51,561 nt of DNA from Dehalococcoidia bacterium (lineage in GTDB: Bacteria > Chloroflexota > Dehalococcoidia > Dehalococcoidales > UBA1222), in contig QZJY01000071.1 in the NCBI GenBank assembly GCA_003597995.1, forward strand, positions 1 to 51,561. The letters run 5' to 3'. A program made the translations under genes and the position numbers. The notes below the pieces were generated by a model that worked only from the letters and a program-made list of their open reading frames with translations, made no database searches and was not told the origin of the DNA. Positions 1 to 35,464 of the stretch are shown in pieces (position 1 is the stretch's first letter; the number at the start of each line of letters is the position of its first letter).

Positions 1-64
1 TAGTGATTAGCGCATGCCCTCCACCTATGGCATACCGCACAAGATACAACTCCTTCCTCATCAT
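1..64 (-). CDS. N-terminal part of a gene that crosses the window junction
   Basis: The minus strand shows AAGGAGG (78-72), a 7-base spacer and two adjacent ATG codons at 64 and 61. From 64 the frame stays open to position 1. If the window is joined end to start, it continues in the same frame, with the split codon giving Ile, into 51561-51242 and gives 127 residues. The N-terminus is Met-Met-Arg-Lys-Glu-Leu-Tyr. I do not recognise the family; see the entry at 51242-51561. Transcription comes from the hairpin-separated small-gene cluster to its right. Confidence 0.75.
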   Translation of the reverse strand, partial: MMRKELYLVRYAIGGGHALIT

Positions 65-90
65 ATGTCGCCCTCCTTGTTGATTGCTTG

Positions 91-110
91 CCGCCAACCA
101 TGGCGGTTGG
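91..110. repeat. Short hairpin A of the left-end hairpin family
   Basis: CCAACC (94-99) pairs with GGTTGG (105-110) around ATGGC; CCGCCA/TGGCGG is an alternative pairing. It lies between the stop of the 116-532 gene and the leader of the next gene. The sequence TTGCTTGCCGCCAACC is shared with hairpins at 635, 1017, 1420 and 1685. No U-run follows, so a simple intrinsic terminator is not obvious. Confidence 0.6.
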
Positions 111-115
111 ATTGT

Positions 116-532
116 CTAGCGTGCGGCTTCCTTGAGCGCCGCGATCACACCATAGTACGGCTCCATGATCACCATGTGGTCGCAACCGGCTAGCTCCTCA
201 TCACTGGCGGCAACATACACGGACCGGCTTGTCACTAGCATACAATCGCCGCCATGCCCCGGATCGGCAACCCGCTCCTCAGAGTGAAGGCGCCTAATAG
301 CTACAATATGGTCAAGGTGTACGGTTGCCTTGCGCTTCTCGGTTGCTACCAAAACTTCCGTCACTTCCATAAACTTCCCGAACACGGTTGGCCGGACCAT
401 GGTCTCGGTTTCCGCCGCCGCCTGTCCCTGAGCATAGCCTAGGTCGTAGGCCACATGTTGCCCGATTGCATGGCGCTCGCCGCGATAGCCATCCATAAAC
501 CCGAATTCCTTAGCCCTTGATGCATCCGACAC
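116..532 (-). CDS. Small hypothetical protein, 138 aa, GTG start
   Basis: I do not recognise the family. The frame is open back to an ATG at 595, but that extension would translate the 42-nt leader also found untranslated before the 1315 gene. I therefore place the start at GTG 532, preceded by GGGGGGAT at the same distance as in the sister gene. The N-terminal third has GY-like spacing (FMDGYRGE, then YDLGYAQGQ), a pattern also seen in the 669-986 protein. The C-terminal half looks like a compact alpha/beta domain with MVIMEPYYG near the end. It belongs to the small-gene array at the left end. Confidence 0.75.
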   Translation of the reverse strand: MSDASRAKEFGFMDGYRGERHAIGQHVAYDLGYAQGQAAAETETMVRPTVFGKFMEVTEVLVATEKRKATVHLDHIVAIRRLHSEERVADPGHGGDCMLVTSRSVYVAASDEELAGCDHMVIMEPYYGVIAALKEAAR

Positions 533-547
533 TAGCCTATCCCCCCT

Positions 548-589
548 TGTTTTAAGATGTCTTACCTGAGGACCTTTTCTGTCATCCCC
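548..589 (-). promoter_or_regulatory. Conserved 42-nt leader, copy 1
   Basis: This 42-nt block is repeated at 1330-1371 with a single difference (41/42 identical). In both places it sits between a long perfect hairpin and the Shine-Dalgarno/start of a small gene (532 and 1315). The core reads CTTACCTGAGGACC on the plus strand. Its placement in the 5' untranslated region suggests a promoter or an RNA regulatory element. No -35/-10 pair is obvious. Confidence 0.6.
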
Positions 590-590
590 T

Positions 591-637
591 GGCAAGCAAC
601 AAGCCGGCTACCCTTAACAGCCGGCTTGTTGCTTGCC
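591..637. repeat. Long hairpin, 19-bp perfect arms, 9-nt loop
   Basis: Arms at 591-609 and 619-637 are perfectly complementary (GGCAAGCAACAAGCCGGCT and its complement). The sister hairpin at 1372-1422 differs inside the stem at one position on both arms (C-G here, T-A there), which is a compensatory change and supports a structured element. It lies downstream of the 669-986 gene and directly before the conserved leader. Confidence 0.8.
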
Positions 638-659
638 GCCAACCGGTATGGTTGGCGGC
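635..659. repeat. GCCGCCAACC hairpin B
   Basis: GCCGCCAACC (635-644) and GGTTGGCGGC (650-659) form a perfect 10-bp stem with a GGTAT loop. It follows the stop codon of the 669-986 gene on the minus strand and partly overlaps the 591-637 hairpin, so the two stems are mutually exclusive at their boundary. It may be a terminator or an mRNA processing/stability element. Confidence 0.7.
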
Positions 660-668
660 GGATTGTGA

Positions 669-986
669 CTAGCGCTTCGGGAAGTAGTTAGCTAGGCAAT
701 CCTTGCCCCGCCAATAGGCGTCAAAGACCGTGCTAAAGGGTTTACCCTTGTCTACCCCATTGGAGCTTGCCTTGCCGCGATTGTAGCCGGCTTGGTAATC
801 CGGGCAATTGCCAACATTGCCAACCGTTTCCGGCCGGTATCCATTGCGGCCATCAACGACACCCATGGTGTACGGCTCGAACCTGATGGCGGTCGTGTCC
901 TTGGTATGTTGCGGCAATCCATTGTTGCCTTCTAGCTCGGCGGCTCGCCTATGCGCATAGCCGCAAATAGGGCAATCGTACGGCAT
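669..986 (-). CDS. Small zinc-finger-like hypothetical protein, 105 aa
   Basis: ATG at 986 is preceded by GAGGAG at a good distance. The N-terminus carries CPICGYAH, a C-x2-C-x3-H half site. The rest has repeated aromatic-Gly spacing (YTMGVVDGRNGY, YQAGYNRGK, YWRGKD), which loosely resembles ribosome-modulation-factor-like and phage 'GYxxG' small proteins; I do not claim homology. It sits between hairpins B and C. Its leader carries GGCAAGCAATCAA, shared with the leaders of the 64 and 1614 genes. Confidence 0.75.
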   Translation of the reverse strand: MPYDCPICGYAHRRAAELEGNNGLPQHTKDTTAIRFEPYTMGVVDGRNGYRPETVGNVGNCPDYQAGYNRGKASSNGVDKGKPFSTVFDAYWRGKDCLANYFPKR

Positions 987-1016
987 GTTACGCTCCTCTT
1001 CTTGTTTTGATTGCTT

Positions 1017-1041
1017 GCCGCCAACCGGTATGGTTGGCGGC
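1017..1041. repeat. GCCGCCAACC hairpin C
   Basis: GCCGCCAACC (1017-1026) and GGTTGGCGGC (1032-1041) pair perfectly around GGTAT, identical in stem and loop to hairpin B. It lies just downstream of the stop of the 1049-1315 gene and before the ribosome binding site of the 986 gene. Confidence 0.7.
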
Positions 1042-1048
1042 GCCGATT

Positions 1049-1315
1049 CTAGCTAGCCATCCATCGGACTAACGGTTGCAATTGTGCCACTAGGGCCTCA
1101 TAGCGCGCGGTGATCTCGGAAAGCGTGTCATCTTGCGGGTTAGCCATGTTACGTGCCACGTACTCCCGCATGGCTAGGCCATCAATCAAGCCGGCTAGGT
1201 ATGCCTCCTGCGCGCCCTTTGGTTGCTCGCTAATCGGGTTGCCATCGGTATCCATGGCATCATCTACAAATGCGGCCATGGTAGCTAGTGCACCCTCTTT
1301 GCTTAGGATATCCAT
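1049..1315 (-). CDS. Small hypothetical protein, 88 aa
   Basis: ATG at 1315 follows a GGGGGGAT Shine-Dalgarno and the second copy of the 42-nt leader. The protein is mostly helical and acidic, with AYLAGLIDGLAMREYVARNM in the middle. No recognised domain. It belongs to the left-end array of small, separately led genes. Confidence 0.75.
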   Translation of the reverse strand: MDILSKEGALATMAAFVDDAMDTDGNPISEQPKGAQEAYLAGLIDGLAMREYVARNMANPQDDTLSEITARYEALVAQLQPLVRWMAS

Positions 1316-1329
1316 AGTTGTATCCCCCC

Positions 1330-1371
1330 TGTTTTAAGATGTCTTACCTGAGGACCTTTTCTATCATCCCC
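1330..1371 (-). promoter_or_regulatory. Conserved 42-nt leader, copy 2
   Basis: Second copy of the element at 548-589, 41 of 42 bases identical, again placed between a long hairpin and the Shine-Dalgarno of a small gene (start 1315). Conservation of untranslated sequence, while the two proteins downstream are unrelated, argues for a regulatory role at DNA or RNA level. Confidence 0.6.
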
Positions 1372-1422
1372 GGCAAGCAATAAGCCGGCTATTGTCAAGG
1401 ATTAGCCGGCTTATTGCTTGCC
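1372..1422. repeat. Long hairpin, 20-bp perfect arms, 11-nt loop
   Basis: Arms 1372-1391 and 1403-1422 are perfectly complementary (GGCAAGCAATAAGCCGGCTA and complement). It is homologous to the 591-637 hairpin with a paired substitution in the stem. On the minus strand the loop contains TTGACA. It separates the 1456-1614 gene from the leader of the 1315 gene. Confidence 0.8.
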
Positions 1423-1444
1423 GCCAACCATGGCGGTTGGCGGC
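1420..1444. repeat. GCCGCCAACC hairpin D
   Basis: GCCGCCAACC (1420-1429) and GGTTGGCGGC (1435-1444) form a perfect 10-bp stem with loop ATGGC, just after the stop of the 1456-1614 gene on the minus strand. Confidence 0.7.
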
Positions 1445-1455
1445 CAACTAGCCAT

Positions 1456-1614
1456 CTAATCCTTGCTAGGCGGGTAAGTAACAATACCGCAAACGCGGCA
1501 CCGTGTAGGGATAATGCTTTCGATCTCCCGAACATCTTCACCCCGCTCGATTGCTAGCGCGGCATGATAGGCGCAAAGCATAGCACCGTCTTGCTCCCGT
1601 ACGTAGGCCTGCAT
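1456..1614 (-). CDS. Tiny zinc-binding protein, 52 aa
   Basis: Translation from ATG 1614 gives 52 residues ending at TAG 1456. AGGAGG lies 6 bases upstream. The protein carries CAYH near residue 14 and CRVC near residue 39, a C-x2-H/C-x2-C arrangement that could bind one zinc ion. It is the first gene of the left-end minus-strand array, next to the non-coding region. No family recognised. Confidence 0.7.
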   Translation of the reverse strand: MQAYVREQDGAMLCAYHAALAIERGEDVREIESIIPTRCRVCGIVTYPPSKD

Positions 1615-1647
1615 GTTACACCCTCCTTATTGATTGCTTGCCTTAAA

Positions 1648-1688
1648 GCAAGGATAACCGGGCAATCAACTTGCCCGGTTATCCTTGC
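1648..1688. repeat. Long hairpin, 18-bp perfect arms, 5-nt loop
   Basis: Arms 1648-1665 and 1671-1688 (GCAAGGATAACCGGGCAA and complement) pair perfectly around TCAAC. It stands upstream of the 1614 gene, in the position that the 20- and 19-bp hairpins occupy before the other small genes. Confidence 0.75.
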
Positions 1689-1713
1689 CGCCAACCATAG
1701 CCGTTGGCGGCAA
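1685..1713. repeat. TTGCCGCCAAC hairpin E
   Basis: TTGCCGCCAAC (1685-1695) and GTTGGCGGCAA (1703-1713) form an 11-bp stem with loop CATAGCC. It is the outermost member of the left-end hairpin family and has no gene upstream of it. Confidence 0.7.
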
Positions 1714-1825
1714 TAGGTGATCCACCCCGCCTAGCTACCCTATTAACTTGTGCCCGGCTTGCCAACCGGTTGCCTTTTGGCCTACCAATTGCAAAGCAAT
1801 CCCCTTTACTTGTTTGGCCGGTTTA

Positions 1826-1866
1826 CACTACACTTGTCACGCTACACTTACTACACTACGCTTATC
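1826..1866 (+). repeat. Iteron-like repeats, 14-bp period
   Basis: CACTACACTTGTC (1826), CGCTACACTTAC (1840) and CACTACGCTTATC (1854) start exactly 14 bp apart. A degenerate copy may follow at 1868. Further separate copies are CACTACGCCTACC (1902) and CACTACGCTTGTC (2320). Directly repeated 12-13-mers at regular spacing in non-coding DNA are typical of Rep/partition protein binding arrays. No known cognate protein is recognised. Confidence 0.6.
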
Positions 1867-1969
1867 GCTTTACACCTAGCCCACACGTGCATGCCCGGCG
1901 ACACTACGCCTACCGTGTGATTTAATGGGGTGCAACCGGGCACACCGTGTATCCCTACTATGTCTATCT

Positions 1970-2001
1970 TGCAAGGCGCCGCAAGGTTACAACGCCTTGC
2001 A
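1970..2001. repeat. Inverted repeat TGCAAGGCG / CGCCTTGCA
   Basis: Two perfect 9-bp arms (1970-1978 and 1993-2001) separated by 14 bp, inside the non-coding region. Possible protein binding site or stem-loop. Confidence 0.5.
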
Positions 2002-2027
2002 CGGGTGTTACCCCCCCTTTTGGCCGC

Positions 2028-2049
2028 GCTAGGCGGTTGCCCGCCTAGC
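2028..2049. repeat. Hairpin GCTAGGCGG-TTGC-CCGCCTAGC
   Basis: A perfect 9-bp stem with a 4-nt loop, preceded by a C-run and TTTT. On the minus strand it is followed by AAAAGG, not a U-run, so it is not a clear terminator. Confidence 0.5.
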
Positions 2050-2618
2050 CGTTAGGACACGTATCGTACGTATCAAAGCCGCGTTAACTTACGTAGTGAT
2101 AGACATAACAAGCCGCTAGCTTGCCATACCGCGGTGGGCTTTACAAGCCCTTTGCCCGATTTTATCGTTATCCCCTACTAGGTGCCACCTACCGGTATCT
2201 TGCACCTACCGGCTAAGTTGTAAATGTGCCACCGCATGCGGTTGCATGCTTTGCGGCCTTTGTGGCAACCGCCACGGTACCGCGCTAGCGTTGGCGCCTT
2301 GCGGCGCGCCAACCGGTTGCACTACGCTTGTCAACTTAAGGTGCTACGTGTATCTTAGCGGCGCTTTATTAGATTAGTATAAGATTGCCCTAAACAACGC
2401 CTAAACGAATCAAACCGCGTTTGAATCGCGGTTGGCGCGCATGATAAGGACAATGCCGCAATCGCGGCGCCGCAACCGGATTCAAACGTCGTTTGGTGAA
2501 TCCCACGGCCGTTGATTTCTTTAGTCAACAACATAATTAAGTGCAATGGTCAACTATCGCGCAAACGACAACATGCGCCGCGCATGATTGCCATGGGTGT
2601 GGCGGCGCCGCGCGCGCG

Positions 2619-2645
2619 TTCGAAATTTTCGAAATTTTCGAATTC
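2619..2645 (+). repeat. Tandem TTCGAAATT 9-mers
   Basis: Two exact copies of TTCGAAATT (2619 and 2628) and a variant TTCGAATTC (2637) stand head to tail. Each contains the palindrome TTCGAA. It is an AT-rich island in GC-rich surroundings, about 25 bp before the TATAAT/palindrome element. Possible regulator site or DNA-unwinding element. Confidence 0.55.
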
Positions 2646-2668
2646 GTCGATGGCTAGGCATGCACGGG

Positions 2669-2696
2669 TATAATCCAGATTATGCCTATAATCTGG
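2669..2696 (+). promoter_or_regulatory. Two TATAAT boxes overlapped by a 9-bp inverted repeat
   Basis: TATAAT occurs at 2669-2674 and 2687-2692. CCAGATTAT (2675-2683) and ATAATCTGG (2688-2696) form a perfect inverted repeat with a 4-bp centre that covers the second box. This looks like a repressor operator over the promoter of the lysis cassette starting at 2819. No convincing -35 hexamer is seen. Confidence 0.5.
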
Positions 2697-2818
2697 CGAG
2701 GCGGGGCGGGGGCCGGGATTGTGGCCGCGAAAACGTCCCCCCAATCCGGAACTACCGGCTAGACAACGGTGCACCCGGTTAGTACAATGGGTGGGAGATT
2801 TCACTCGGAGGGGAGGTA

Positions 2819-3355
2819 ATGCAGTTTGATGTAGTCAAGGAATGGGGGGCATTTGTCGCGGTGTCCCTCGCCGTCCTCGGTGCCGTGTATAGCCACGGCC
2901 GGTTCCTTGCCGGTTTATCCTCCGGCGTCTCCCACCTCGGCCAATCGGTAGCGGTGCTCCAGACAGAGCGGGTCGCGACGGCGCTCAAGCAGGCGGAGCT
3001 TGATCAGCGGTTGTCGCGGGTTGAGACTAAGCTCGAGGTCGTGTGGGCCTCATATCTTGATGAGATCGGCCGGCGTGATGAATCGGTGTCGGCTCCCCTT
3101 CGACTCAATCCCCAAGGTGTCGCCATTGCCCGCTATCTCAAGGACCTCGTCAAGGACGTGCCTTTTAGCCCTGACCGCCCGGTGTCTGATCTTGTGCTCT
3201 TTGAGATACCGGATCGCGTTGGTATCACTCAACTCAGAAAGGCGAGTCAAGACCTTGGGGTGCCGTTGGGGGACGTGCTATCGGTATGCAATGTGATCGC
3301 GGAGTATGGCGTGAGCGCTTGGGAGCGCATCACGCGGGAGGAGCGGGTATCGTGA
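2819..3355 (+). CDS. Membrane-anchored coiled-coil protein in lysis cassette, 178 aa
   Basis: ATG 2819 follows GAGGGGAGGT. Residues about 8-32 are hydrophobic (FVAVSLAVLGAVYSHGRFLAGL), one membrane segment. Residues about 45-80 form a heptad-like amphipathic helix (LDQRLSRVETKLEVVW), and the rest is a soluble alpha/beta domain. It is the first gene before the transglycosylase and the holin-like gene, so a role in lysis (XhlA- or spanin-like) is plausible, but the C-terminal domain is larger than usual for those families. Its stop TGA overlaps the GTG start of the next gene. Confidence 0.8.
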   Translation: MQFDVVKEWGAFVAVSLAVLGAVYSHGRFLAGLSSGVSHLGQSVAVLQTERVATALKQAELDQRLSRVETKLEVVWASYLDEIGRRDESVSAPLRLNPQGVAIARYLKDLVKDVPFSPDRPVSDLVLFEIPDRVGITQLRKASQDLGVPLGDVLSVCNVIAEYGVSAWERITREERVS

Positions 3356-4017
3356 GTGACAAGGTATTACGCTGGGGGAGCTTGATCGTGCGGCACGCGC
3401 GGCCACACTTACTATCCCCGGCGTTGGTAGCAGGCCTCATCGAGGTCGAGAGTGGTGGTGATCCGTTGGCGGTGTCGCACCTAGGAGCGGTTGGCCTAAT
3501 GCAGATTCTCTCCGCTGATGTAATGGAGGGCCGACCGACCAAAGAGGTCTTGAAGGACCCCGACTTCAACATCAAGTACGGCTGCGATCTCCTTGCGGCG
3601 TTGCGCGCCCGTTGGGATACGCAGGCCGGGATGCTCGCGGCCTACTTTGGCGCCATTGATGGCAACGGCCGGCCTAATGACTCAAGCGATGGCTCCGGCG
3701 TGGACGGCTGGGGTTACGTTATGCTCGTGGAGCAGGCCGCGATGCGCTACTACGGCCTGAACAGCCGGGTCGATAGTGATTATGCGCAATATGCGCCGCA
3801 CACCCACACTTGGCGGGAGGCCGCGGAGAACCTGAAAGGCATTGCCACGGATGCCCTTGAGGCCGGCCGGCGATTGCGCGACCGTAGCCGTATGGCCCTC
3901 GACAACTGGCCGGCGCTCAAAGATCACATGGAGCGGCTGTACTCTGAGATCGTTGACGCCGGGCGGAGCGGCGCCAACCTCGCTAAGCAGAACGTGGATG
4001 ACTGGGGTGCCCGCTAG
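3352..4017 (+). CDS. Lytic transglycosylase (SLT domain), 221 aa
   Basis: The start is GTG 3352, overlapping the upstream stop as GTGA and preceded by GGGAGGAG. The SLT fold is shown by LIEVESGGDPLA (catalytic Glu expected at residue 33) and by AVGLMQI about 15 residues later. SLT enzymes cleave the MurNAc-GlcNAc bond of peptidoglycan with 1,6-anhydro formation. The C-terminal part is helical (residues 160-221) and unassigned. No signal peptide is evident, so it would need a holin; a holin-like gene follows at 4055. It is probably the endolysin of this virus. Confidence 0.88.
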   Translation: MSDKVLRWGSLIVRHARPHLLSPALVAGLIEVESGGDPLAVSHLGAVGLMQILSADVMEGRPTKEVLKDPDFNIKYGCDLLAALRARWDTQAGMLAAYFGAIDGNGRPNDSSDGSGVDGWGYVMLVEQAAMRYYGLNSRVDSDYAQYAPHTHTWREAAENLKGIATDALEAGRRLRDRSRMALDNWPALKDHMERLYSEIVDAGRSGANLAKQNVDDWGAR

Positions 4018-4054
4018 GCGCTAGCCTAGATAATCCACAAAAGGAGGAAACGAA

Positions 4055-4330
4055 GTGGAACCGGAGACTATCGCCCTCGTATTGCTCGGGTTGCTATCGC
4101 CCTTGCTCATGGCGGTGTTCAAGGCGTTCGTCTGGAACGTGAGCGACCGCCCGGCGCAGATCGTGACGGTGATCTTGTGCTATGCTATCGCCGGCTTTGC
4201 CGTGTGGTGGCAGGGCGGGATAAACTCTATTGATGAGCTTGTGCTTGCCGGTGGCCCGGTATCGGCCCTTGCCCTTGTTCTTCATCGCCAACTAAAGCAG
4301 TACTTCACAAGCGATCTGGACACGGGCTAA
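4055..4330 (+). CDS. Holin-like small membrane protein, 91 aa
   Basis: GTG 4055 is preceded by AAAGGAGG. There are two to three hydrophobic segments (about residues 5-26, 34-52 and 62-76), separated by short charged loops, and a polar C-terminus. Small size, membrane segments and position directly after the transglycosylase fit a holin that releases the enzyme to the periplasm or wall. No sequence family is recognised. Confidence 0.75.
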   Translation: MEPETIALVLLGLLSPLLMAVFKAFVWNVSDRPAQIVTVILCYAIAGFAVWWQGGINSIDELVLAGGPVSALALVLHRQLKQYFTSDLDTG

Positions 4331-4367
4331 AGTCTCGGCACGCAGCACGCAGCACGCGGAAATACAA

Positions 4368-4391
4368 AACCCCGGCCAACCGGCCGGGGTT
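4368..4391. terminator. Bidirectional intrinsic terminator
   Basis: AACCCCGGCC (4368-4377) and GGCCGGGGTT (4382-4391) form a 10-bp GC-rich stem with loop AACC between the convergent lysis and late operons. The minus-strand transcript continues into TTGTATTT, a fair U-rich tail. The plus-strand tail is weaker (CATTGTTTG). Confidence 0.8.
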
Positions 4392-4404
4392 CATTGTTTG
4401 GCTA

Positions 4405-5985
4405 TCATGGTAGCGGGCACTCTATCCCCTCAACGACAACTCCGGAATCCACGTACGCAACGCCATCGCTGTTTCTTACCCGCACAACGCAGTTTACCCA
4501 CGCCGCTGCCGCATTTATCTTATGTCGCACGATTAGAAACTCATAGGCGCCCGATCCGCTGTGGTAAGGACTAGAACTCCCGCCGATATCATCACTTATC
4601 CGCACTTGCACTTGATTTGCAGCGCTCGCCTTCACCCATATTCCGAAACACGCCCATCGGCCCGCTATCAAAAGAAGGTCGGCAACCGTCTGATAGAAGT
4701 CGGTGTCCGCGCCGGCACGTGTTACGGCTGCACAGAAACTGCCTCTCCTGCGCTCTGCTGCATTTTGTGCGACACTTGCCCCCGCGCCTACTTGCAGCCA
4801 ATTATCGGGCGGCACGGCGCCCCCACCTGACCACGTCTCCATATTCCAGTTAAGCAACAAATTAGATAAGGAGACCCCCGTAGGCCAAACAGGAGCGGCG
4901 CCAAGGACAAGGCCGCCGGTCGCCATTTCTATCCGGTTGCCGCCGCCGGATAGATCGTTGACAAGCGTGGTGCTATTGTGCTGATGTAAGCCAAGAATCA
5001 GATTGCCGAACGTGTTGGGCTCAAACTGAATCGCGGTCGTAATGTTCTCGACGGTGAGGCCAATGACTTGATTCTCTCGGGCGGAGTAATGCCATGACCT
5101 TGTTCCATCATCGAAGTGAACACCAATAGTCCCGGCAGTCTTTGCGGGGTCGTTAATAGTCGTGCGCACTAAGGTATTTGCGAAACCCTTTTCTAGATGT
5201 ATGCCTTTGCTGCCAACCAGCCCGGCTAGGTTAATGCGTAAGTCCTCGATTAACGACTCATCGGCACTAGCATTATTGTCCCCGTCGTTGCCGGTTAACA
5301 TTAGATTCGTGAGGTTATTAGATAGGTAAATCTTGCGCAGATGATTCTGTATTGCCGCAACATTCACACCGCCGCCACTTATCCGTAACCCGGTACCGGC
5401 GGTGAATCCCGATATAGACACGTTTTCAATCATACACGCGCTCGGAGACGAGACATTAAGACCTATACCGTTAACAGCACCCGCTCCCGCTCTAATTGCC
5501 ACGTTTATCAGGCCGGCTCCTGATCCCACTCCTAAAGTACCGTCCCCGATCTCTACACAAGCATCTCCTGCGACATTAGAGATGAGCTGCGTTCCGTTCT
5601 CTCCGTAGCTATTACCTACCCCAATCAAGAACACGCCGGTCGGGATTACGAGCTTGCTGTTTACATCGCTAGCAATGGGACCAAGTAAAACGCCGGTAGT
5701 GACACCTAATGCACCGGCAGCATCAAGGGCATCTTGAATCGAGTCGAATAGGTCAGAGTGGAAGAGCCATTGCAGTCTAACAAGACTTGTGCCGTTGAAT
5801 CCTATGATATCCCCCTGAACTGCGCCGTCGACTGAGAATATCAACTTCCACGTCGTGCCATCATCCCAATAGATGCCCGGTGCCACATCGGTAACACGCA
5901 CTATCCGGCCGGCTTTACCTGCCGGCGGCAAGAAGGCCAGCTGAAAGCTAGGCAACGGCTCAAGGACACGCATCAAGTTGCTCAT
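4405..5985 (-). CDS. Beta-helix receptor-binding spike with C-terminal carbohydrate-binding-like domain, 526 aa
   Basis: The N-terminal peptide MSNLMRVLEPLPSF is shared with the neighbouring spike at 5997-7664, suggesting a common attachment domain on the particle (residues 1 to about 60). Residues about 75-370 are rich in N/G/V turns of pectate-lyase-like right-handed beta-helix type. Residues about 375-526 (NWNMETWSGG at their start) resemble CBM4/9-like jelly rolls that bind glycans. It is the last gene of the long late operon, just before the terminator. It most likely binds or cleaves the host surface polysaccharide; no catalytic residues can be assigned. Confidence 0.8.
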   Translation of the reverse strand: MSNLMRVLEPLPSFQLAFLPPAGKAGRIVRVTDVAPGIYWDDGTTWKLIFSVDGAVQGDIIGFNGTSLVRLQWLFHSDLFDSIQDALDAAGALGVTTGVLLGPIASDVNSKLVIPTGVFLIGVGNSYGENGTQLISNVAGDACVEIGDGTLGVGSGAGLINVAIRAGAGAVNGIGLNVSSPSACMIENVSISGFTAGTGLRISGGGVNVAAIQNHLRKIYLSNNLTNLMLTGNDGDNNASADESLIEDLRINLAGLVGSKGIHLEKGFANTLVRTTINDPAKTAGTIGVHFDDGTRSWHYSARENQVIGLTVENITTAIQFEPNTFGNLILGLHQHNSTTLVNDLSGGGNRIEMATGGLVLGAAPVWPTGVSLSNLLLNWNMETWSGGGAVPPDNWLQVGAGASVAQNAAERRRGSFCAAVTRAGADTDFYQTVADLLLIAGRWACFGIWVKASAANQVQVRISDDIGGSSSPYHSGSGAYEFLIVRHKINAAAAWVNCVVRVRNSDGVAYVDSGVVVEGIECPLP

Positions 5986-5993
5986 GACTCACC
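5951..5993 (-). repeat. Spike-start direct repeat, copy 1 (43 bp)
   Basis: This block covers the Shine-Dalgarno region and first codons of the 4405-5985 spike. It matches 7630-7672 at 38 of 43 positions; 22 bp on one side and 13 bp on the other are identical. The few differences are mainly synonymous codon changes (SNL) plus Met/Val. Confidence 0.8.
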
Positions 5994-5996
5994 TCG

Positions 5997-7664
5997 TTAC
6001 GTGACGATTGCCTGCCAGCCGAATGTTAACCCTCCGGCGCCGGGGTCGGCTGTGCAATGCACGGTGAATTGTGTGGCGGTGATCGTGTCCACCCACATAT
6101 GTCCCGGCGGGTTGGTCGTCGTTCCGGACGGGGTGATCTTGATATCCTGCACTGCCGGCGTGAGGCTTAGCCCGTGATTGATCACGACGCTGGTCGCCGC
6201 ATTCGGGATAGTGCCCGTGCCCTTGGCCTCGGTGTTGTATCCCTTGTTGTTCCGGATGAAGCAATTTGTGTCGCCGGAACGATTGAGGCCGGTGTTTAGA
6301 TTGCCGCGCAGGTGATTCTCGGTGAATTGGCTTTGCTGCAAGACTCCGCCGCCGCCTGCGTACACGAGCATGCCATAACGCTGAGTCTTGACCCCTTGGT
6401 CATCCCAGCACCGGTTGCCTTGCGCCTTGCACTCCTCGATCACGCCGGCCGCGCCGGTTGCCGCAAACGCGATGCCATCGCTGTTCGGATCAACCTGCGC
6501 GCTATTGCTTACGTGGTTGCGATCAACAGAGATCTCCGATACCGTCTTATCGGTGGCCTCGACATAGATACCATGCTCTCCGGAGCCGCGTACTCGGTTG
6601 CCTTGCACGGCGATATCGCGCAGGTTGCTGGATGCGCCGTCTAGGTGGATGCCGTAGCCCACGCTATCCCAAACGCCATTCTTGGCAATCGTGATGCCAT
6701 TCGGCGGGGTGCCGTGCGTGCCGGCGGTAACTTTGATGCCGGCGTTGCCTTGCGCCTCCCTCACCTTGTTGTCATTCACCGTCGAGTTTATCACGCCACC
6801 ACCTACCACGATACCCACGAGCGTCGCGTTCTTGATGCTATTGCCCTTCACCGTGCAATCCAGCACGTTCATTGACGGGGTAGTAAGACCGATTATGATG
6901 CCGTGGCCGGCGCAGTTTCTTACTTGATTGCCGAGCACCACACAGCCCTCAGAGTCTTGTGTGCCGTTGGGTGCATACACCGCGATGGCATCGCTATTGT
7001 TGCCATCTACCACGTTGCCGATAATCCGGCCGTCAACCGTGGAATTAACGTCAACGCCCTGCCCGCCCACAGCGCCAATATTGCAGCCCTCAACGAGCAC
7101 TTTCGTACACTGCCGGCAAAAGACACCGCTTCCATTGTTGCCACTAGCTCTCACATCACGCACGATCAAATTGGTCACGATGCGCATATCGACCCAGCCG
7201 CCCTTATCGCTGCCGGTGAATGCCGGGCCGGTGAAACGGATTGCTAGGATGCGAATGTTGCTGTTGCCGCCCACCCAATCAACGTTCCTCATAACGGTGA
7301 GCACCGGAACGCCTATCCAGTTCAAGATCGACTGATCACCCAAGCCGATGATGATGCGATTCGAGGGCACGGTGAGTACGGCACTGATATCAAACGTGCG
7401 CGGCGGGATAAAGATCGCGGGCGCGTTGTCGAGGGCATCCTGAATCGCCGCATTGTTCACAGATGCCGCGGCGCTCGAGCTTGCCCCGAATTCCTCGATG
7501 TTAGCAATCTCTCCCGTGAGACTAAGCCATTGACTGCCGTTGTCGAGCATAATACCGCGAGCACCGTCGGTGCGTACAGCGACACGACCGCGTCGGGAGG
7601 CGCGCGGCAAGTATTGCTCTGCAAACGCCGGCAACGGCTCAAGGACACGCACTAGATTACTCAT
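5997..7664 (-). CDS. Right-handed beta-helix spike, 555 aa
   Basis: The N-terminus MSNLVRVLEPLPAF matches the second spike. Residues about 70-100 hold the typical AIQDALDNAPAIFIPPRTF start of pectate-lyase-like tailspikes. Residues 100-470 show many repeating NxV/GxGI rungs (HGIIIGL, YGIHLDG, HGIYVEA). The C-terminal 70 residues (IPNAATSVVINHGL, then FTVHCTADPG) form a small beta domain often found at fibre tips. It is translated after the recombinase gene. The likely role is binding or depolymerising host surface glycans. Confidence 0.85.
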   Translation of the reverse strand: MSNLVRVLEPLPAFAEQYLPRASRRGRVAVRTDGARGIMLDNGSQWLSLTGEIANIEEFGASSSAAASVNNAAIQDALDNAPAIFIPPRTFDISAVLTVPSNRIIIGLGDQSILNWIGVPVLTVMRNVDWVGGNSNIRILAIRFTGPAFTGSDKGGWVDMRIVTNLIVRDVRASGNNGSGVFCRQCTKVLVEGCNIGAVGGQGVDVNSTVDGRIIGNVVDGNNSDAIAVYAPNGTQDSEGCVVLGNQVRNCAGHGIIIGLTTPSMNVLDCTVKGNSIKNATLVGIVVGGGVINSTVNDNKVREAQGNAGIKVTAGTHGTPPNGITIAKNGVWDSVGYGIHLDGASSNLRDIAVQGNRVRGSGEHGIYVEATDKTVSEISVDRNHVSNSAQVDPNSDGIAFAATGAAGVIEECKAQGNRCWDDQGVKTQRYGMLVYAGGGGVLQQSQFTENHLRGNLNTGLNRSGDTNCFIRNNKGYNTEAKGTGTIPNAATSVVINHGLSLTPAVQDIKITPSGTTTNPPGHMWVDTITATQFTVHCTADPGAGGLTFGWQAIVT

Positions 7665-7672
7665 GACTCACC
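7630..7672 (-). repeat. Spike-start direct repeat, copy 2 (43 bp)
   Basis: Same block as 5951-5993, in direct orientation 1679 bp away, at the start of the 5997-7664 spike and at the end of the tyrosine recombinase gene. The interval between copies holds almost exactly one spike gene, so recombination between the copies would remove or exchange one spike body while keeping the attachment peptide. Confidence 0.8.
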
Positions 7673-8501
7673 CCCACATCGGCAAGAACGGATGCTGTGC
7701 GTAAACCTGATCGTCCAGCACGCCGCCATCGGGCTTGAAGTACCGAAAGGCAATCTTCGCATGCTGATTAGGCGCCGTGCGCCATCCCATCCAGCGGTGC
7801 ACGACAACATCCGGCACGCCGGACTCGAGCAAGCCGGTGATTAGCGCGCGCCGGATGCTATGCCACCCCTCACGCTCCCGCGGCAAGCGCACGTAACCTG
7901 TCATAAGGCGGGTGAACATCTTGTGCACGCCGTCCACCCCGATCTTGCGCCCGCCAAAACGCAGGCGCTTACTAAGCACCGGCGGTATCCGGTGCTCACG
8001 CTTCCGCCCGGTCTTTACTGTCTGAACGACGAGCTTCTTTCCATCGCAGCCCGCGGAGATTACCGCGGCGATCTCAGCAGCGCGCAATCCGTAGACCGTT
8101 GACAAGGCCACCGCGACGACAGCTGAGCCAGCCACCGGCTTCATTGTCTTGATTAGCCCGGCGATATCCTGCACACCCATTACGATGCCGCCCTCATCTT
8201 CCTGTGGCAATCCAAGGTGCAGATCCCGGCGCTGCAACGGCCACGGCAAGTTATTTGCGTGGAACATGGCCCGCACGCCGCCTAGGATCGTATGGATGCT
8301 CTGCTCTTTGTAGCCGGCGAGCACCAGCTTGTCTACATATGATAACACGTCCTCTCGAGTGTAAGCCGGCCGGGCGCCAAGGACGGCTAGAAATCGCCTT
8401 GACTGGCCTAGGAACGCTGAGATCGTGTTCTCGCTGTAGCGTGCCCCTAGGCTCGCCCGCAAGCGTAATAGGTACTGGTACTCGAGAGTGCTATCACTCA
8501 A
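7668..8501 (-). CDS. Tyrosine recombinase, 277 aa
   Basis: The catalytic set is visible: R140 (VYGLR), K163 (TVKTGRK), H214 and R217 (WHSIRR), H235/W240 (HRWMGW) and Y254 (AFRYFK). The N-terminal 100 residues look like a SAM-like core-binding domain. The start is TTG 8501, overlapping the stop of the 8494 gene; the Shine-Dalgarno is weak, so translation is probably coupled. It lies inside the late operon beside the spike genes, not in an early lysogeny module. A role in spike exchange or resolution of genome multimers is as likely as integration. No attachment site was identified. Confidence 0.88.
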   Translation of the reverse strand: MSDSTLEYQYLLRLRASLGARYSENTISAFLGQSRRFLAVLGARPAYTREDVLSYVDKLVLAGYKEQSIHTILGGVRAMFHANNLPWPLQRRDLHLGLPQEDEGGIVMGVQDIAGLIKTMKPVAGSAVVAVALSTVYGLRAAEIAAVISAGCDGKKLVVQTVKTGRKREHRIPPVLSKRLRFGGRKIGVDGVHKMFTRLMTGYVRLPREREGWHSIRRALITGLLESGVPDVVVHRWMGWRTAPNQHAKIAFRYFKPDGGVLDDQVYAQHPFLPMWG

Positions 8502-8826
8502 GGCGCAACCGTCCCGCGTACATTGAAATGCGTTGGCGCGCAGATAGTCCTGATACCAGTAGCGGCCGAATCGCCCGCGTCAAGGCATTGAGCGCGGTGT
8601 CTGGATAGAGATATAAAAGCGTTACGTTCTTGGTCATATTTTGTGGTATCTCACGCCAGAACAGGCCACCTACCAGATACCGTCCCCGCCACTTCCGTAC
8701 GAAAGGCAAATGTCCTGCGCGCACACGATCAAGCTGGAGTATCCCGTCCCATACCGTCGTGGTATGCAGCGCCGGCCCGCACACGATGATATCTTTGCCG
8801 GTATGGATGCCGTGCCTTGTCTTCAC
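8494..8826 (-). CDS. Hypothetical protein, 110 aa
   Basis: GTG 8826 overlaps the upstream stop as TAGTG. It is a basic protein with VRAGHLPFVRKWRGRYLVGGLFWRE in the middle (only part quoted as motif: KWRGRYLVGG). It ends eight bases inside the recombinase gene. No family recognised; position between the lectin-like gene and the recombinase suggests a late function. Confidence 0.65.
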   Translation of the reverse strand: MKTRHGIHTGKDIIVCGPALHTTTVWDGILQLDRVRAGHLPFVRKWRGRYLVGGLFWREIPQNMTKNVTLLYLYPDTALNALTRAIRPLLVSGLSARQRISMYAGRLRLE

Positions 8827-9671
8827 TAGCCCACTCCTAATAGGGCAAGATGACCAACGGTGGCCGCGGGCGCCGCGGCGGCAACGTAGTATCGGCGGCG
8901 CGGAATCAACGGCCGATATAGCTCCCAGCGAGTCTGGGGGTCGTAGAGCTGACGCGCCTGCTCGACAGTAAGAGCGCGATTATAGATCCGAGTGTCGAAG
9001 ATTGTGGCGTTGACAGAAGCGTTATCTAGGTTAGAGCGACCGATCAACGTAGGGTAGATGTTGTTGTACGTAATGGTACCTGAATAGGCTGCAGCAGTCA
9101 CCAATTGTTGCACGCCATTGACGTAGTACCGCAAATTGTCGCCGCTGCGCCACGTACCGACTAGACAGTAAACTGTGTTTGCGCTAAGGACATACTGCCC
9201 AGCATCCCGAAAAACGTTACTGATCGTAACGAAGAACCCGCTTTGAGCACCACCTACAGAAGTGCTCTCTCGGAGTCCGTAACTCAAATAGGGAGGACCA
9301 CCAGCAACCTGCTTGCCAACGTAAACTCCAAAGTCATCTTGCGAGCCAGAGCCGGTACGCACCCATGATACAAGTGTGATAGCGTTCGATGGTTCGCTGA
9401 TCGCGCCCACGTTGATGTAGTCGCCGCCTACATCCTCAAACTGGATACCAACTCCTAGCTCGGCATTTGTGATGTGGATAGGGGTACCGCCGAATATGCC
9501 GTTTCTAGCCCTGCCGCTGTAATCGCGCAGCACGTTTTGCCCGCGACTACCGAGCGTCGGCCACCAGCCAACAAGGCCCTCGGCCTGCTCTGAATCCCTG
9601 TTGACCGTGAACGGTACGCCGGTCGGTGGCTTGCGATAAGGCCAGCCATGTTTGGCTAGTAAGAGAGACAC
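8826..9671 (-). CDS. LamG/concanavalin-like lectin domain protein, 281 aa
   Basis: GTG 9671 follows GGGGGCGG. Residues about 30-245 show the laminin-G_3 pattern: GLVGWWPTLG, FEDVGGDYINVG, ITLVSWVRTG, NLRYYVNGVQQ, ATIFDTRIYNRALTVEQARQ. This fold is a jelly-roll that binds carbohydrates, common in virion adhesins. The tail RWELYRPLIPRRRYYV is typical of environmental phage LamG proteins. It is a probable second receptor-binding protein in the adhesion part of the late operon. Confidence 0.85.
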   Translation of the reverse strand: MSLLLAKHGWPYRKPPTGVPFTVNRDSEQAEGLVGWWPTLGSRGQNVLRDYSGRARNGIFGGTPIHITNAELGVGIQFEDVGGDYINVGAISEPSNAITLVSWVRTGSGSQDDFGVYVGKQVAGGPPYLSYGLRESTSVGGAQSGFFVTISNVFRDAGQYVLSANTVYCLVGTWRSGDNLRYYVNGVQQLVTAAAYSGTITYNNIYPTLIGRSNLDNASVNATIFDTRIYNRALTVEQARQLYDPQTRWELYRPLIPRRRYYVAAAAPAATVGHLALLGVG

Positions 9672-9681
9672 TTACCGCCCC

Positions 9682-10266
9682 CTACTGGATTTCAGGCACG
9701 ATGGGATCAAGCACGACATGACACTCTACGTCGTCAGAGTGAAACGCCGCGTTGCTCTCGTTCTTCACGATTAGCGTGCCATAGCGTTCGGTGGGGGCAA
9801 AGACACCGACTTCGCACACCTGCACGGTGGCTGTCGCCTCTGCCGTACACACGAAATTACCGATATGGATAAGCTGCCTCACACCGTTCGCCAAAGTGCC
9901 GCCGCCGCTGTATGCTGAGTCGGCACCCACCACGCCGCCGGGGTTAGCGTTGGCCGCCGTGCCCGACGGGCTAGGCGCCCAATATAGCTCGATAAGGTCC
10001 CCTGCGGTGGGCGTCGCCGCAATCTCGAATGCCGCGCGTACCGCGTAAAGCTCCGCCCGGTTGGTGCCAAGATCGACCTTAGTTGATTGCCGGGCCGCCG
10101 CGTCTGCCAAGCTCGCCAAGGAAATCTGGCAATCTAACTCTTGGCTCCCGTCACTTGTCTTGCGCAGGTCGGTAGCCGCCGCCGGGTTAAAATCCCCCGC
10201 GTGGTCTGCGAAGACTATTTGCAGGGGAGTGCCATCCATTTCTTGGACGAGAATCTTGTTTGGCAT
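9682..10266 (-). CDS. Beta-rich virion-associated protein, 194 aa
   Basis: ATG 10266 with GGGGG upstream. The central motif IELYWAPSPSGTAANANPGG and the late AAFHSDD segment match a protein type often seen near fibre genes of environmental phages, usually unannotated. Predicted beta sandwich. The genes before and after encode other structural proteins, so a particle component is likely. Confidence 0.7.
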   Translation of the reverse strand: MPNKILVQEMDGTPLQIVFADHAGDFNPAAATDLRKTSDGSQELDCQISLASLADAAARQSTKVDLGTNRAELYAVRAAFEIAATPTAGDLIELYWAPSPSGTAANANPGGVVGADSAYSGGGTLANGVRQLIHIGNFVCTAEATATVQVCEVGVFAPTERYGTLIVKNESNAAFHSDDVECHVVLDPIVPEIQ

Positions 10267-10269
10267 TGT

Positions 10270-10662
10270 TTACCCCCTTGCCGCGGTGACGTGCCCCGTG
10301 CGTACCCGTTCGAGACCGATTTCCTCAGCGCGGCTTCCTTTGCGAGTCTGGAGCACGATAAGATTGGCCCGTGTCGCGCTGCCGGCGCCGAACATGGCGG
10401 CCAGCGCCGTGCGGATGTTTTGACTGGCGATGCTTATCGTGCCGGCAGAGATAATGGTCAAGTATGTTTGCTTTTGGTCAGCAGTTAGCCCGGCAAAGTC
10501 AGCGGGCGCCGTGGCATCAAGAATCTCCCACGTTTGGATTATGTCTCGCGGCACGTTTCGCAGCGTCGGATCGTTGAGCCTTGCAGCGGCCGCATTATCC
10601 GACATGCCCGCGTACCCCCACCCCAAGGGGTCGTTTAGCAGCTCCTCTCGCAAAACGCTCAT
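10270..10662 (-). CDS. Conserved phage protein of the LLNDPxGxGYAGM type, 130 aa
   Basis: The N-terminal motif ELLNDPLGWGYAGMSD and the C-terminal segment (SRAEEIGLERVRTGHV) define a widespread small helical protein found beside structural genes of many tailed and unclassified phages. Its function is unknown. The start is probably ATG 10662 (GGGG at 5 bases); GTG 10668 is possible but too close to that site. Confidence 0.75.
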   Translation of the reverse strand: MSVLREELLNDPLGWGYAGMSDNAAAARLNDPTLRNVPRDIIQTWEILDATAPADFAGLTADQKQTYLTIISAGTISIASQNIRTALAAMFGAGSATRANLIVLQTRKGSRAEEIGLERVRTGHVTAARG

Positions 10663-10670
10663 ACTCACCC

Positions 10671-12617
10671 CTACGCTACTTTGCTCTGAAATCCGGTCAC
10701 TGAGATATACACGGTATCCAGCGCCGCTGACACGTCGTAGGCCAGCGCCGTGTTGGCGCTAGTCTTGAACAATGGTTCATCAGACACGATGTTGGCACCG
10801 CTGTTCGCCGGCAATGGCACCGTCCAGAGCACGGCGCCCGCCGCACCGTCCCGGAAGTCGAGGTAGCCCGGCGTCGCGCTCGAGTTGTAAACCGAGTAAC
10901 CGCGCACGTAGTTCTTGACACCGGCCACCGCGGCAAAGTTGGTAAACGCTGTGGCAACGCCATCGGCATTGGTTACGCGCTCGCTAACGAGATCGCCTAG
11001 CGCCGCGGATTGCCGAACGAGTATCGCCCCATCAAGATCGGCGTAGCCATCCGTACGATCACCGCTTGCAACAAGCGTCACCGCCTCAAGGCTAGATACC
11101 GCCTTGGCACCGATCTTGATCGGATTGCCCGCATCCACCGCGTCGTGGGCCACCGCGCCCACCACCTGAGCATTGAGATTAGCTGCTGTGGCCTGTACTA
11201 TGGTTACGTCGCCGGACACCCTAGTCACGTCAACATCAAGGCCATTTGCTGCATCACCGGTGATTGCCACCGGCCCACCGGCGCCCGGCACGGCAAGACC
11301 AACCGAGACACGGTTCACGGTACCCGCGCCGCTGTCGAGGTCTAGCTCCGCAAATGTGATAAAGGCCACCCCGTCCGATAATCGCACGGCAACCGGCGTG
11401 CCTACCGGCGCATCAACGGTAAGACTACCGCCATTGTCGTCAACGCTCAGTAGACCGGTTGAGTCGTTGGCAATCGTGACACGGAGGGCGGTTGCCTCAG
11501 CTCCTCCTCCAACAACGGAGAGCGCGGCGTTATCAACCGTAAGAGAGCCGCCGTTATCGGACACCGGTACGGGATTGCCGACCCCTACGTCGGCATTGCC
11601 TACCTGGAGGTTGGCGTTGAGATTCAGATTGTCGTGGGTGGCCTGAACTACCGTCACGTTGCCCGACACGCGGGTTACGTCTACATCGAGGCCATTGGCG
11701 GCATCACCGGTGATTATCACGTGACCGCCGACGCCTGCTACGCCAAGGGCAACTATCCCGTGTGTGTCACCGCCCCCTAGGCTATCGAGATCAGCCTCAT
11801 CTCCTAGGAAATCGGTGATACCCACATTGCCGATGGTATTTGCCCCGGCCGGCAACGAGGCGGCGACTTCAACAGGCATATTGAGATTGCCGGCCGCATA
11901 ACCCACGGCCGTCCAAGCACCGGCGCCATTCTGCACTTGAGTCTGAGCAGCACCGCCGCCAGCGCCACCCGCCACCACATTGACACGCACTGCTGTATTG
12001 GCAAGATCACCCACCGCGATGATGTTGCCGAGGCCATCGGTTACGCGCACCGGCCATGCATTTGCCGCCGCTGCCGGCGCGCCTTGGTCGACGGTGCCTT
12101 GGATCGGCATGTTGAGATTACCGCCGGCATAACCCACGGCCGTCCAAGCACCGGCGCCATTCTGCACTTGAGTCTGAGCTACACCGCCGCCCGCTCCGCC
12201 GGCCACCACGTTGACACGGACGGCGTTGTTAACCGCATCACCCACCTGCACGATAGCAGCGCCGGTTGAGGCCGCAATCGGCCACGCATTGGCCGCCGCC
12301 GCCGGGCTACCTTGGTCGACAGCGCCCTGCACCGGCATATTGAGATCGCCGGCAAAGTAGCCCACCGGAGTCCAAGCACCGGCGGCATCTCTTACTTGAG
12401 TCTGCGCAATACCACCACCGGCGCCGCCGGCCACCACGTTGACGCGCAGCGCATTGTTGGCTTGATCGCCCACCTCAACGCGCGTACCGGCGTCAGTGGC
12501 GACGATAGGGACGGGATTGGCATCATCAGCCGTGATCACTACCCGACCGTTGGCATCGACTTGTACAAGGGTAGGTATCCCGGCGCTGGTGTAGCCGACT
12601 AAGACCTGCCGTCCCAT
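10671..12617 (-). CDS. Repeat-rich fibre-like structural protein, 648 aa
   Basis: AAGGAGG precedes ATG 12617. Three tandem units of about 76 residues (near 50-125, 126-202, 203-252) share RVNVVAGGAGGG, AQTQVQNGAGAWT and VGYAxGNLNMP. A second pair of units shares ITGDAANGLDVDVTRVSG. The C-terminal 150 residues form a separate beta domain (TNADGVATAFTNFAAV, NYVRGYSVYNSS). Composition (A/G/N/V/D) and repeats suggest a trimeric fibre or surface decoration. Units 2 and 3 are also close at nucleotide level, so copy number may vary by recombination. Confidence 0.75.
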   Translation of the reverse strand: MGRQVLVGYTSAGIPTLVQVDANGRVVITADDANPVPIVATDAGTRVEVGDQANNALRVNVVAGGAGGGIAQTQVRDAAGAWTPVGYFAGDLNMPVQGAVDQGSPAAAANAWPIAASTGAAIVQVGDAVNNAVRVNVVAGGAGGGVAQTQVQNGAGAWTAVGYAGGNLNMPIQGTVDQGAPAAAANAWPVRVTDGLGNIIAVGDLANTAVRVNVVAGGAGGGAAQTQVQNGAGAWTAVGYAAGNLNMPVEVAASLPAGANTIGNVGITDFLGDEADLDSLGGGDTHGIVALGVAGVGGHVIITGDAANGLDVDVTRVSGNVTVVQATHDNLNLNANLQVGNADVGVGNPVPVSDNGGSLTVDNAALSVVGGGAEATALRVTIANDSTGLLSVDDNGGSLTVDAPVGTPVAVRLSDGVAFITFAELDLDSGAGTVNRVSVGLAVPGAGGPVAITGDAANGLDVDVTRVSGDVTIVQATAANLNAQVVGAVAHDAVDAGNPIKIGAKAVSSLEAVTLVASGDRTDGYADLDGAILVRQSAALGDLVSERVTNADGVATAFTNFAAVAGVKNYVRGYSVYNSSATPGYLDFRDGAAGAVLWTVPLPANSGANIVSDEPLFKTSANTALAYDVSAALDTVYISVTGFQSKVA

Positions 12618-12635
12618 ATCGCCTCCTTATGGCAA

Positions 12636-12887
12636 CTAGCGCCGCTTTTGTCGGTTCTCAGGAGCGACGTCTACTTGCTCCGGCTGTTTGACTGGCACCG
12701 GCGGCGGGCCGCCCTTGATCGGTATCCGGTTGATTGTGCCGTCCGGATCAATCGTGTCGCCCGGCTTGAGCCGATACTTAGCGGCCAAATGATTCTTCCA
12801 CGAGTTGAACGCCCCTTGTGCGACCACGAACTCTTGTACGATCTTGCGATGATACTCGAGGTCGCTCTTGTCGATGAATTCCGCCAT
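12636..12887 (-). CDS. Small hypothetical protein, 83 aa
   Basis: ATG 12887 follows AGGAGGGAG; the frame is open further upstream, but that extension would overlap the DUF1360 gene and lacks a ribosome site. The middle reads AFNSWKNHLAAKYRLKPGD, then IDPDGTINR, a pattern seen in small phage proteins near structural genes. The C-terminus is proline-rich and basic. Function unknown. Confidence 0.7.
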   Translation of the reverse strand: MAEFIDKSDLEYHRKIVQEFVVAQGAFNSWKNHLAAKYRLKPGDTIDPDGTINRIPIKGGPPPVPVKQPEQVDVAPENRQKRR

Positions 12888-12901
12888 TAGGTCACTCCCT
12901 C

Positions 12902-13210
12902 CTATTTTGTGGCCTTGTAGGCAAGGCCGGCTAGCCCGGAAAGCGCCAAGGTCAAGAGCACATACCACGCGCCCGGCACGTAGTAATAAGCCACAAGGAT
13001 AATACCACTCGCCCAAACACTCATACACCAAAAGCACGAGGCGAGCTTACCGAAGAACGTATCGCTGTACCAGTTGCCCGCGATATCTTGATGAGCACCC
13101 AAGGCAATCCGCATGCGCGCAAAGACGGCCGCCGGACCGTCTTCTATGGTCAGGAGATGAGTTAGGCGCCACACAGCCGCGGACAAAACCAAGAGGGTTA
13201 GGAGATCCAC
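12902..13210 (-). CDS. DUF1360 membrane protein, 102 aa
   Basis: Residues 1-24 are one hydrophobic segment ending in RLTHLLTIEDGP. A second is at about 66-80 (ASGIILVAYYYVP) and a third at 82-98. The signature CFWCMSVWASG (C-x2-C followed by W) is that of DUF1360. These proteins occur in Bacillus and actinobacterial phages and spore-formers; function unknown. It is embedded in the late operon, so it may be a membrane component of the particle or act late in infection. Confidence 0.82.
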   Translation of the reverse strand: MDLLTLLVLSAAVWRLTHLLTIEDGPAAVFARMRIALGAHQDIAGNWYSDTFFGKLASCFWCMSVWASGIILVAYYYVPGAWYVLLTLALSGLAGLAYKATK

Positions 13211-13223
13211 AAGAACCTCCTTC

Positions 13224-13634
13224 TTAGGGGCCGCTATTGTCTACGATTAGCCCGTAGGCCGCTAATGCCGTAAGCAGGCTACCTAGTGCCGCGTTACCGC
13301 CCTTTGCGCCGGCTACCGCTTGCTGTGCCGCCGGGCCGTCACCAAAGAAGCCTAGTTGATTGCCCGGTCCTGCCACGTGCGCATCACCCAGCAAGCTCGA
13401 ATCACCGGATACGCTGAGATCAAAGTTCCAGTAATTACCAACGCTGAATAACGAGGCCACTGCTACATCGCCTACCCAAAGGATAACCGAGTTGGTAAGG
13501 CGATCCGGCTGGAACTTTATCTTGGGCGCCAACGGATTGCCGTTGTGAATCTCAAAGCTACCGTCGGTTAACACCCGGCCATAGGCGTTGTTACGCACTA
13601 CCTCTGCATACGGGCGGGAGAATCCTAAATGCAC
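13224..13634 (-). CDS. Structural protein with fibre-type C-terminus, 136 aa
   Basis: The start is GTG 13634, with AAGGAG 8 bases upstream and just after the stop of the 13639 gene; the upstream open extension lies under another gene. The first 90 residues are beta-rich (ILWVGDVAVASLF). The C-terminus GGNAALGSLLTALAAYGLI is a common ending of phage fibre/baseplate-like proteins that ends in a short trimerisation helix. Probable particle surface protein. Confidence 0.75.
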   Translation of the reverse strand: MHLGFSRPYAEVVRNNAYGRVLTDGSFEIHNGNPLAPKIKFQPDRLTNSVILWVGDVAVASLFSVGNYWNFDLSVSGDSSLLGDAHVAGPGNQLGFFGDGPAAQQAVAGAKGGNAALGSLLTALAAYGLIVDNSGP

Positions 13635-13638
13635 GGTC

Positions 13639-13944
13639 TTAACTCCTTGCGACAAGCAATCCCGCGCCGACAAGCACGGCGCCGGCAACCAGCAGCATGG
13701 CCTTGTCACCGCTCGGGTAGCCGCAAAGGGCAATGCGGATCGGATCACCCTCCGGGAACAGATTACGGTTTGAGCACACCTCCCGGCGCACGTCTTCGAC
13801 ACCGAGTTCACACCAGTACGGCTCGTAGGCGCAAAGCCGCGCTCGTGCCCGGCCCACCGCGTCGCCGGTAGACATTGCAAAGGCGGGCGGCATGCTGCTA
13901 CTTGTCTCCGTCTCGCCAAACATACCGTAATCGTACATACTCAC
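13639..13944 (-). CDS. Tail-anchored small protein, 101 aa
   Basis: The ATG 13944 start has a GGAGGTGAG site. The N-terminal 80 residues contain four cysteines (CAYEPYWC, VCSNRN, ALCGYP), and the last 20 (AMLLVAGAVLVGAGLLVARS) are one hydrophobic helix. It lies directly before the lysozyme-like gene on the map and after it in transcription; both share the C-terminal anchor layout. Proposed to sit in a viral or host membrane. No family recognised. Confidence 0.72.
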   Translation of the reverse strand: MSMYDYGMFGETETSSSMPPAFAMSTGDAVGRARARLCAYEPYWCELGVEDVRREVCSNRNLFPEGDPIRIALCGYPSGDKAMLLVAGAVLVGAGLLVARS

Positions 13945-13951
13945 CTCCGTT

Positions 13952-14599: not shown

Positions 14600-14617
14600 G
14601 ACCCATCACCCCTTTTG

Positions 14618-15238: not shown

Positions 15239-15246
15239 ATCTCACC

Positions 15247-15723: not shown

Positions 15724-15733
15724 TGGCTACTCC

Positions 15734-16707: not shown

Positions 16708-16760
16708 CTACGCCTCCTCTCTCTTTTCTTTGGTCGGCGTAACTATGGGCGCTTGGGGGA

Positions 16761-17228: not shown

Positions 17229-17233
17229 TGTCA

Positions 17234-18887: not shown

Positions 18888-18926
18888 GATTTAACCTCCG
18901 TTCCGCCATTTCGTGGGCGGTTAATA

Positions 18927-19352: not shown

Positions 19353-19364
19353 AGCGGCGCCCCC

Positions 19365-19922: not shown

Positions 19923-19976
19923 GTTAGAACCTCCCTAATGTTTCAATTCCCATCCGAGCGGGAACGGATGTGAAGG

Positions 19977-34705: not shown

Positions 34706-34708
34706 AAC

Positions 34709-35442: not shown

Positions 35443-35464
35443 CTTAATCGGATATCCGGTTTTC

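Follow-up and report, generated by a model that had tools for sequence, protein, structure and literature searches.

Does the 51,561-nucleotide contig analysed here (the window, comprising all of contig C71 of a 71-contig, 1.80-Mb Dehalococcoidia genome bin) represent a complete genome whose two ends adjoin in nature, or is it a piece of something larger? A preliminary description had noted that a gene open at the left end and a frame open at the right end could form a single coding sequence, and had concluded that the window is a genome, circular or circularly permuted, that was opened within a gene. With base 51561 placed next to base 1, the two ends formed one minus-strand open reading frame (ORF) of 384 nt, encoding 127 amino acids plus a stop, with no base lost or gained. 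Every sequence fact in that description was borne out: the ATG at 64–62 on the minus strand, the AAGGAGG at 78–72, the frame open to base 1, the open frame from 51561 to the TAG at 51244–51242 (64 + 320 = 384 nt) and the split codon, which reads ATC (Ile). On both sides of the join, the frame of the cut gene ranked best of the six by codon usage. Thus, a gene with a start, a Shine-Dalgarno sequence and a stop runs in frame across the contig ends. The window has no exact terminal overlap (8–199 bp checked), and so no direct terminal repeat of 20 bp or more. The features at the ends are:

1–64, minus strand: 5′ portion of the cut gene (21 codons and 1 nt), start ATG at 64–62 (from sequence; codon usage best of six frames)
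72–78, minus strand: Shine-Dalgarno sequence AAGGAGG of the cut gene (from sequence)
83–110, minus strand: repeat/hairpin between the gene at 116–595 and the cut gene; the repeat family also precedes the starts of neighbouring small genes
51242–51561, minus strand: 3′ part of the cut gene, a member of a small-protein family located directly upstream of AAA cassettes (profile match and position)

The repeat at 83–110 is one of five units (the others at 591–660, 1010–1041, 1371–1448 and 1648–1713) that separate the small minus-strand genes of the left end. Each contains either one strong hairpin or two (up to −50 kcal/mol, z −8.4), and the units share the sequence CCGCCAACC..GGTTGG; none of them showed a terminator-like T run. 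A 48-nt repeat, 96% identical between its copies at 542–589 and 1324–1371, is placed at the starts of the small genes 116–595 and 1049–1315 or upstream of them, and is possibly a shared promoter or operator.

The preliminary description held that chance agreement of frame, openness and length on both sides was unlikely. We cut the window sequence at random 4,000 times, joined the resulting ends, and counted ORFs over the join. An ORF of at least 127 amino acids, contributing 18 or more codons on either side, spanned the join in 42% of cuts on the minus strand and in 50% on either strand. When a Shine-Dalgarno sequence was also required, 9.9% of random cuts passed. The chance argument as originally worded therefore fails and carries little weight by itself; in this densely packed genome, with its genes almost wholly on one strand, continuity of frame alone is weak evidence for closure. 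More restrictive is the left end, which supplies an in-phase start with a Shine-Dalgarno sequence 21 codons from the end. Such a start, at 8–35 codons, is available at 3.3% of window positions (1.7% if only ATG is allowed).

We characterized the protein encoded by the right-hand piece. A profile built from homologues at three loci (L028–L030), without any sequence from the window or from contig C39 of the same bin, matched the right half with 22.6 bits (E about 5e-6). With a four-member profile that included the C39 sequence, only the right half, out of 1,120 ORFs in the circularised window, matched significantly (E 4e-7). Selection of the family was slightly circular, as two of the three profile members were found with the joined protein, and it is their position that corroborates them. 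In both L029 and L030, an ORF directly precedes genes for a 66-aa protein and an AAA ATPase, and these two ORFs ranked first and second as matches to the joined protein among the ORFs searched (1,320 in one search); in L028, the domain of the cut gene is fused to the 66-aa domain. The right half thus combines a significant profile match with a gene position equal to that of L028–L030. As its match begins near profile position 32–35 of 140, the right-end gene lacks its N-terminus.

Whether the left 21 residues are that N-terminus was less clear from similarity. They added nothing to the profile score (26.8 versus 26.7 bits), a result that most shuffled left peptides equalled, and against the N-termini of the homologues they ranked 66th of 80 window N-termini. 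Nor do they contain the MxCNLAxxITKA that is conserved at the N-terminus in L028–L030. We therefore rejected residue-level homology between the left residues and the family N-terminus. The homologue search that the preliminary description had proposed as a check was in this way divided, placing the right half in the family found upstream of the cassettes but showing the left 21 residues to be unlike the N-terminus of that family. The joined protein had no relatives in viral contigs, phage records or 393 genomes of the class, and the exact junction 40-mer was absent from the viral and genome contigs searched.

A second family gave a match over the join. Residues 2–69 of the joined protein aligned to positions 20–87 of phrog_16620, with equal length on both sides (19.9 bits, E 0.0014). 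This weak match was lost without the left residues, and the right half alone gave none; at this E value it is only suggestive. We did not retain phrog_16620 as a junction-spanning family, since its matches were all weak and none lay on the window contig. We also set aside C39:4411–4776 as a proven homologue. Its position is similar to that of the cut gene, its similarity is weak (6 of 1,000 shuffles reached the global score), and a profile built without it fails to find it.

The cut gene is the first of a cassette, followed by a 51-aa ORF, the 66-aa protein, the AAA ATPase and a 426-aa partner protein:

50866–51066, minus strand: 66-aa protein, second cassette gene (counterparts C39:6391–6597, L029:3290–3520 and L030:1132–1368); DUF2997-like by position only
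49104–50879, minus strand: AAA ATPase (PF00004, from Pfam)
47779–49059, minus strand: 426-aa partner of the AAA ATPase, no family

The cassette is conserved as a unit. Relatives of the ATPase and its partner were found on C39 in the same bin, on contig G496:C13 from another genome and in several Chloroflexota genomes, and the ATPase also has relatives on large Paenibacillaceae plasmids. Cassettes on Chloroflexota chromosomes (L031–L033, L036 and L037) likewise carry small proteins directly upstream of a homologous ATPase and partner, but DUF2997 matches only these chromosomal counterparts. The 127-aa and 66-aa proteins of the window fall below the Pfam cut-offs for DUF2997 and for every other family, with no match to DUF1257 or DUF2997. 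Scans of viral contigs with alignments of the ATPase, its partner and a capsid candidate (below) gave no match. On C39 (G000:C39, locus L018), an RRXRR-HNH protein, as in IscB-like nucleases, is encoded at 5149–6321, between two genes upstream of the ATPase. In the window, 46064–46582 and 46865–47245 encode a paralogous pair of small proteins.

Evidence of a different kind came from G496:C13, a 45,502-bp contig from a second genome in the same order. The 127 bases at its start recur exactly at its end, and 127 is a common largest k-mer length. Because of this exact terminal repeat, G496:C13 closes on itself. According to the authors of CheckV, an assembler that opens a circular template leaves terminal repeats of odd k-mer length, and concatemeric linear genomes can likewise yield terminal repeats (PMC8116208). 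The two elements share a tyrosine recombinase, the AAA ATPase, its partner and three virion-like proteins; for a fourth small protein the similarity is weak. The virion-like genes lie in conserved order, and neither element has a recognised terminase. They differ in GC content (47.6% in G496:C13, about 59% in the window) and in strand layout, most of their genes are not recognisably homologous, and their virion proteins are at most 33% identical. From this comparison, genomes of the lineage are most likely circular or circularly permuted. G496:C13 also encodes, at 34108–35802 (L020:14108–15802), a protein with a LAGLIDADG domain, a weak intein-like match and a match to a ribonucleotide reductase PHROG.

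Could the window instead be linear, cut from some larger element or from a provirus, with both ends falling by chance in minus-strand genes in matching phase? Chance continuity is common in this sequence, the left residues are unlike the family N-terminus, and the window has no terminal repeat. Yet the fitting start and Shine-Dalgarno sequence are expected at few left ends, the sister contig closes on itself, and neither end is shared with another contig: searches with the outer 20,000 and 11,561 bases found only short, weak or diverged matches in the rest of the bin, and positions 1–20,000 and 40,001–51,561 had no convincing match, including spacer-like exact matches, in other contigs. We consider a fragment improbable. 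A circularly permuted, terminally redundant linear genome, packaged by the headful and merely assembling as a circle, is compatible with closure and shares in its probability. Repeats of k-mer length come from circles and from concatemer-replicated linear genomes alike (PMC8116208), but a terminase is required for headful packaging, and neither element has a recognisable one. A missing profile match is weak evidence. We regard this form as unlikely, though less so than a fragment.

As the window has no long internal repeat, it is one genome unit. We conclude, with a probability of roughly 0.88, that the window is a complete virus-like genome, circular or circularly permuted, with ends that adjoin in nature. 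The original proposal is thereby supported, mostly by a family member that needs an N-terminus and by the 127-bp repeat of the sister rather than by frame continuity. The assembler would have cut at an arbitrary point within the 127-aa gene, and the molecule would be a covalently closed circle (an episome, or a form excised by the tyrosine recombinase) or a circularly permuted one. We infer both its status as a replicon and its physical circularity. Closed circular viral contigs assembled from metagenomes, in the sense of CheckV and IMG/VR, are likewise one genome unit with a gene continuous over the ends; the window differs in lacking a terminal repeat, in resting on gene continuity and in having no recognised terminase.

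The recombinase and the replication-type genes are encoded as follows:

7668–8501, minus strand: tyrosine recombinase with an apparent R-K-HxxR-H-Y set; homologue in G496:C13
31345–32646, minus strand: MCM/AAA-type ATPase
35656–36966, minus strand: AAA_25 replicative-helicase-like ATPase
36963–37505, minus strand: DnaG-type primase zinc finger protein
37533–38744, minus strand: RecT-family annealing protein
40663–42039, minus strand: DNA methyltransferase
43790–44737, minus strand: phage-type protein, annotated as DNA topoisomerase (VI) in relatives, phrog_6247

By eye, the recombinase has the catalytic residues in the order R...K...HxxR...H/W...Y (LRAAE 139, KTGRK 163, HSIRR 214, HRWMGW 235 and RYF 253), and its G496:C13 homologue passes the Pfam cut-off. 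Since these residues are apparently all present, the circle could be an excised form able to integrate, or the enzyme could resolve dimers. A near-perfect inverted repeat (35460–35521; 25-nt arms, 12-nt loop) occupies the gap between the genes at 34709–35305 and 35656–36966. Rfam and tRNA scans of the window found nothing. The bin holds a bacterial 16S rRNA, which points tentatively to Dehalococcoidales as the host; viral contigs can be wrongly binned.

We examined whether the gene content is that of a virus. The relevant products are:

4405–7664, minus strand: two paralogous proteins (4405–5985 and 5997–7664), the second with a beta helix and matches to tail-spike profiles
15734–16117, minus strand: beta-rich virion-like protein; homologue in G496:C13
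16105–16707, minus strand: virion-like protein, capsid candidate; homologue in G496:C13
18402–19352, minus strand: two small virion-like proteins (18402–18887 and 18927–19352), both weakly similar to C13:41998–42456
19365–19922, minus strand: virion-like protein heading a block whose gene order is conserved in G496:C13
28635–31325, minus strand: PKD-repeat protein with a C-terminal hydrophobic segment

The window also encodes LamG-like proteins and a transglycosylase-like (lytic) protein. Together, the beta-helix, LamG-like, PKD and transglycosylase-like proteins suggest a virus. Structure prediction of the capsid candidate from its single sequence was useless (pLDDT 32), and a scan of genome contigs with it gave no match. 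The predicted fold of 15734–16117 (pLDDT 62) had weak fold matches that included phage capsid cement proteins, on which we do not rely. The paralogous spike-like genes have in common a 43-nt start region that is 88% identical. Elsewhere, 10671–12617 encodes a 648-aa protein of no family that is internally repetitive, a 228-nt unit being present three times (64–72%). The segment 23845–26569 is a plus-strand island in the mostly minus-strand genome; its 697-aa protein weakly matches an ADP-ribosyltransferase (polyvalent-protein) family, with a score under the Pfam cut-off.

PHROGs and Pfam searches of the large window genes, most genes of the structural block and ten large G496:C13 proteins detected no terminase, portal or major (HK97-type) capsid protein, although remote members are possible. 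The set that marks Caudoviricetes (terminase large subunit, portal and HK97-type capsid) was thus found in neither the window nor G496:C13. Because no such profile matched either element, "virus-like" is the safest term. These absences, the tyrosine recombinase and the plasmid-borne relatives of the AAA ATPase would suit a plasmid or integrative element that is not a virus. We find this doubtful, given the phage-type replication genes, the tail-spike-like beta helix, the lytic transglycosylase-like protein and the conserved-order block of small virion-like genes common to both elements.

Closure of a contig is an ordinary kind of finding, but the virus-like lineage is itself poorly known. If the window is a complete closed unit, its gene absences become meaningful, and the missing recognisable terminase would be a property of the element, not of a lost piece. 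Tentatively, and with the odds still against it, the window and G496:C13 may be the first two complete members of a circular dsDNA virus lineage of Dehalococcoidales-type bacteria, lacking a recognisable terminase, portal or HK97 capsid, with unknown or tailless packaging and with an AAA-ATPase cassette that otherwise occurs in cellular genomes. With lengths of 51.6 and about 45.4 kb, the two would serve as complete references for virus-like elements of a little-known lineage from Chloroflexota bins.
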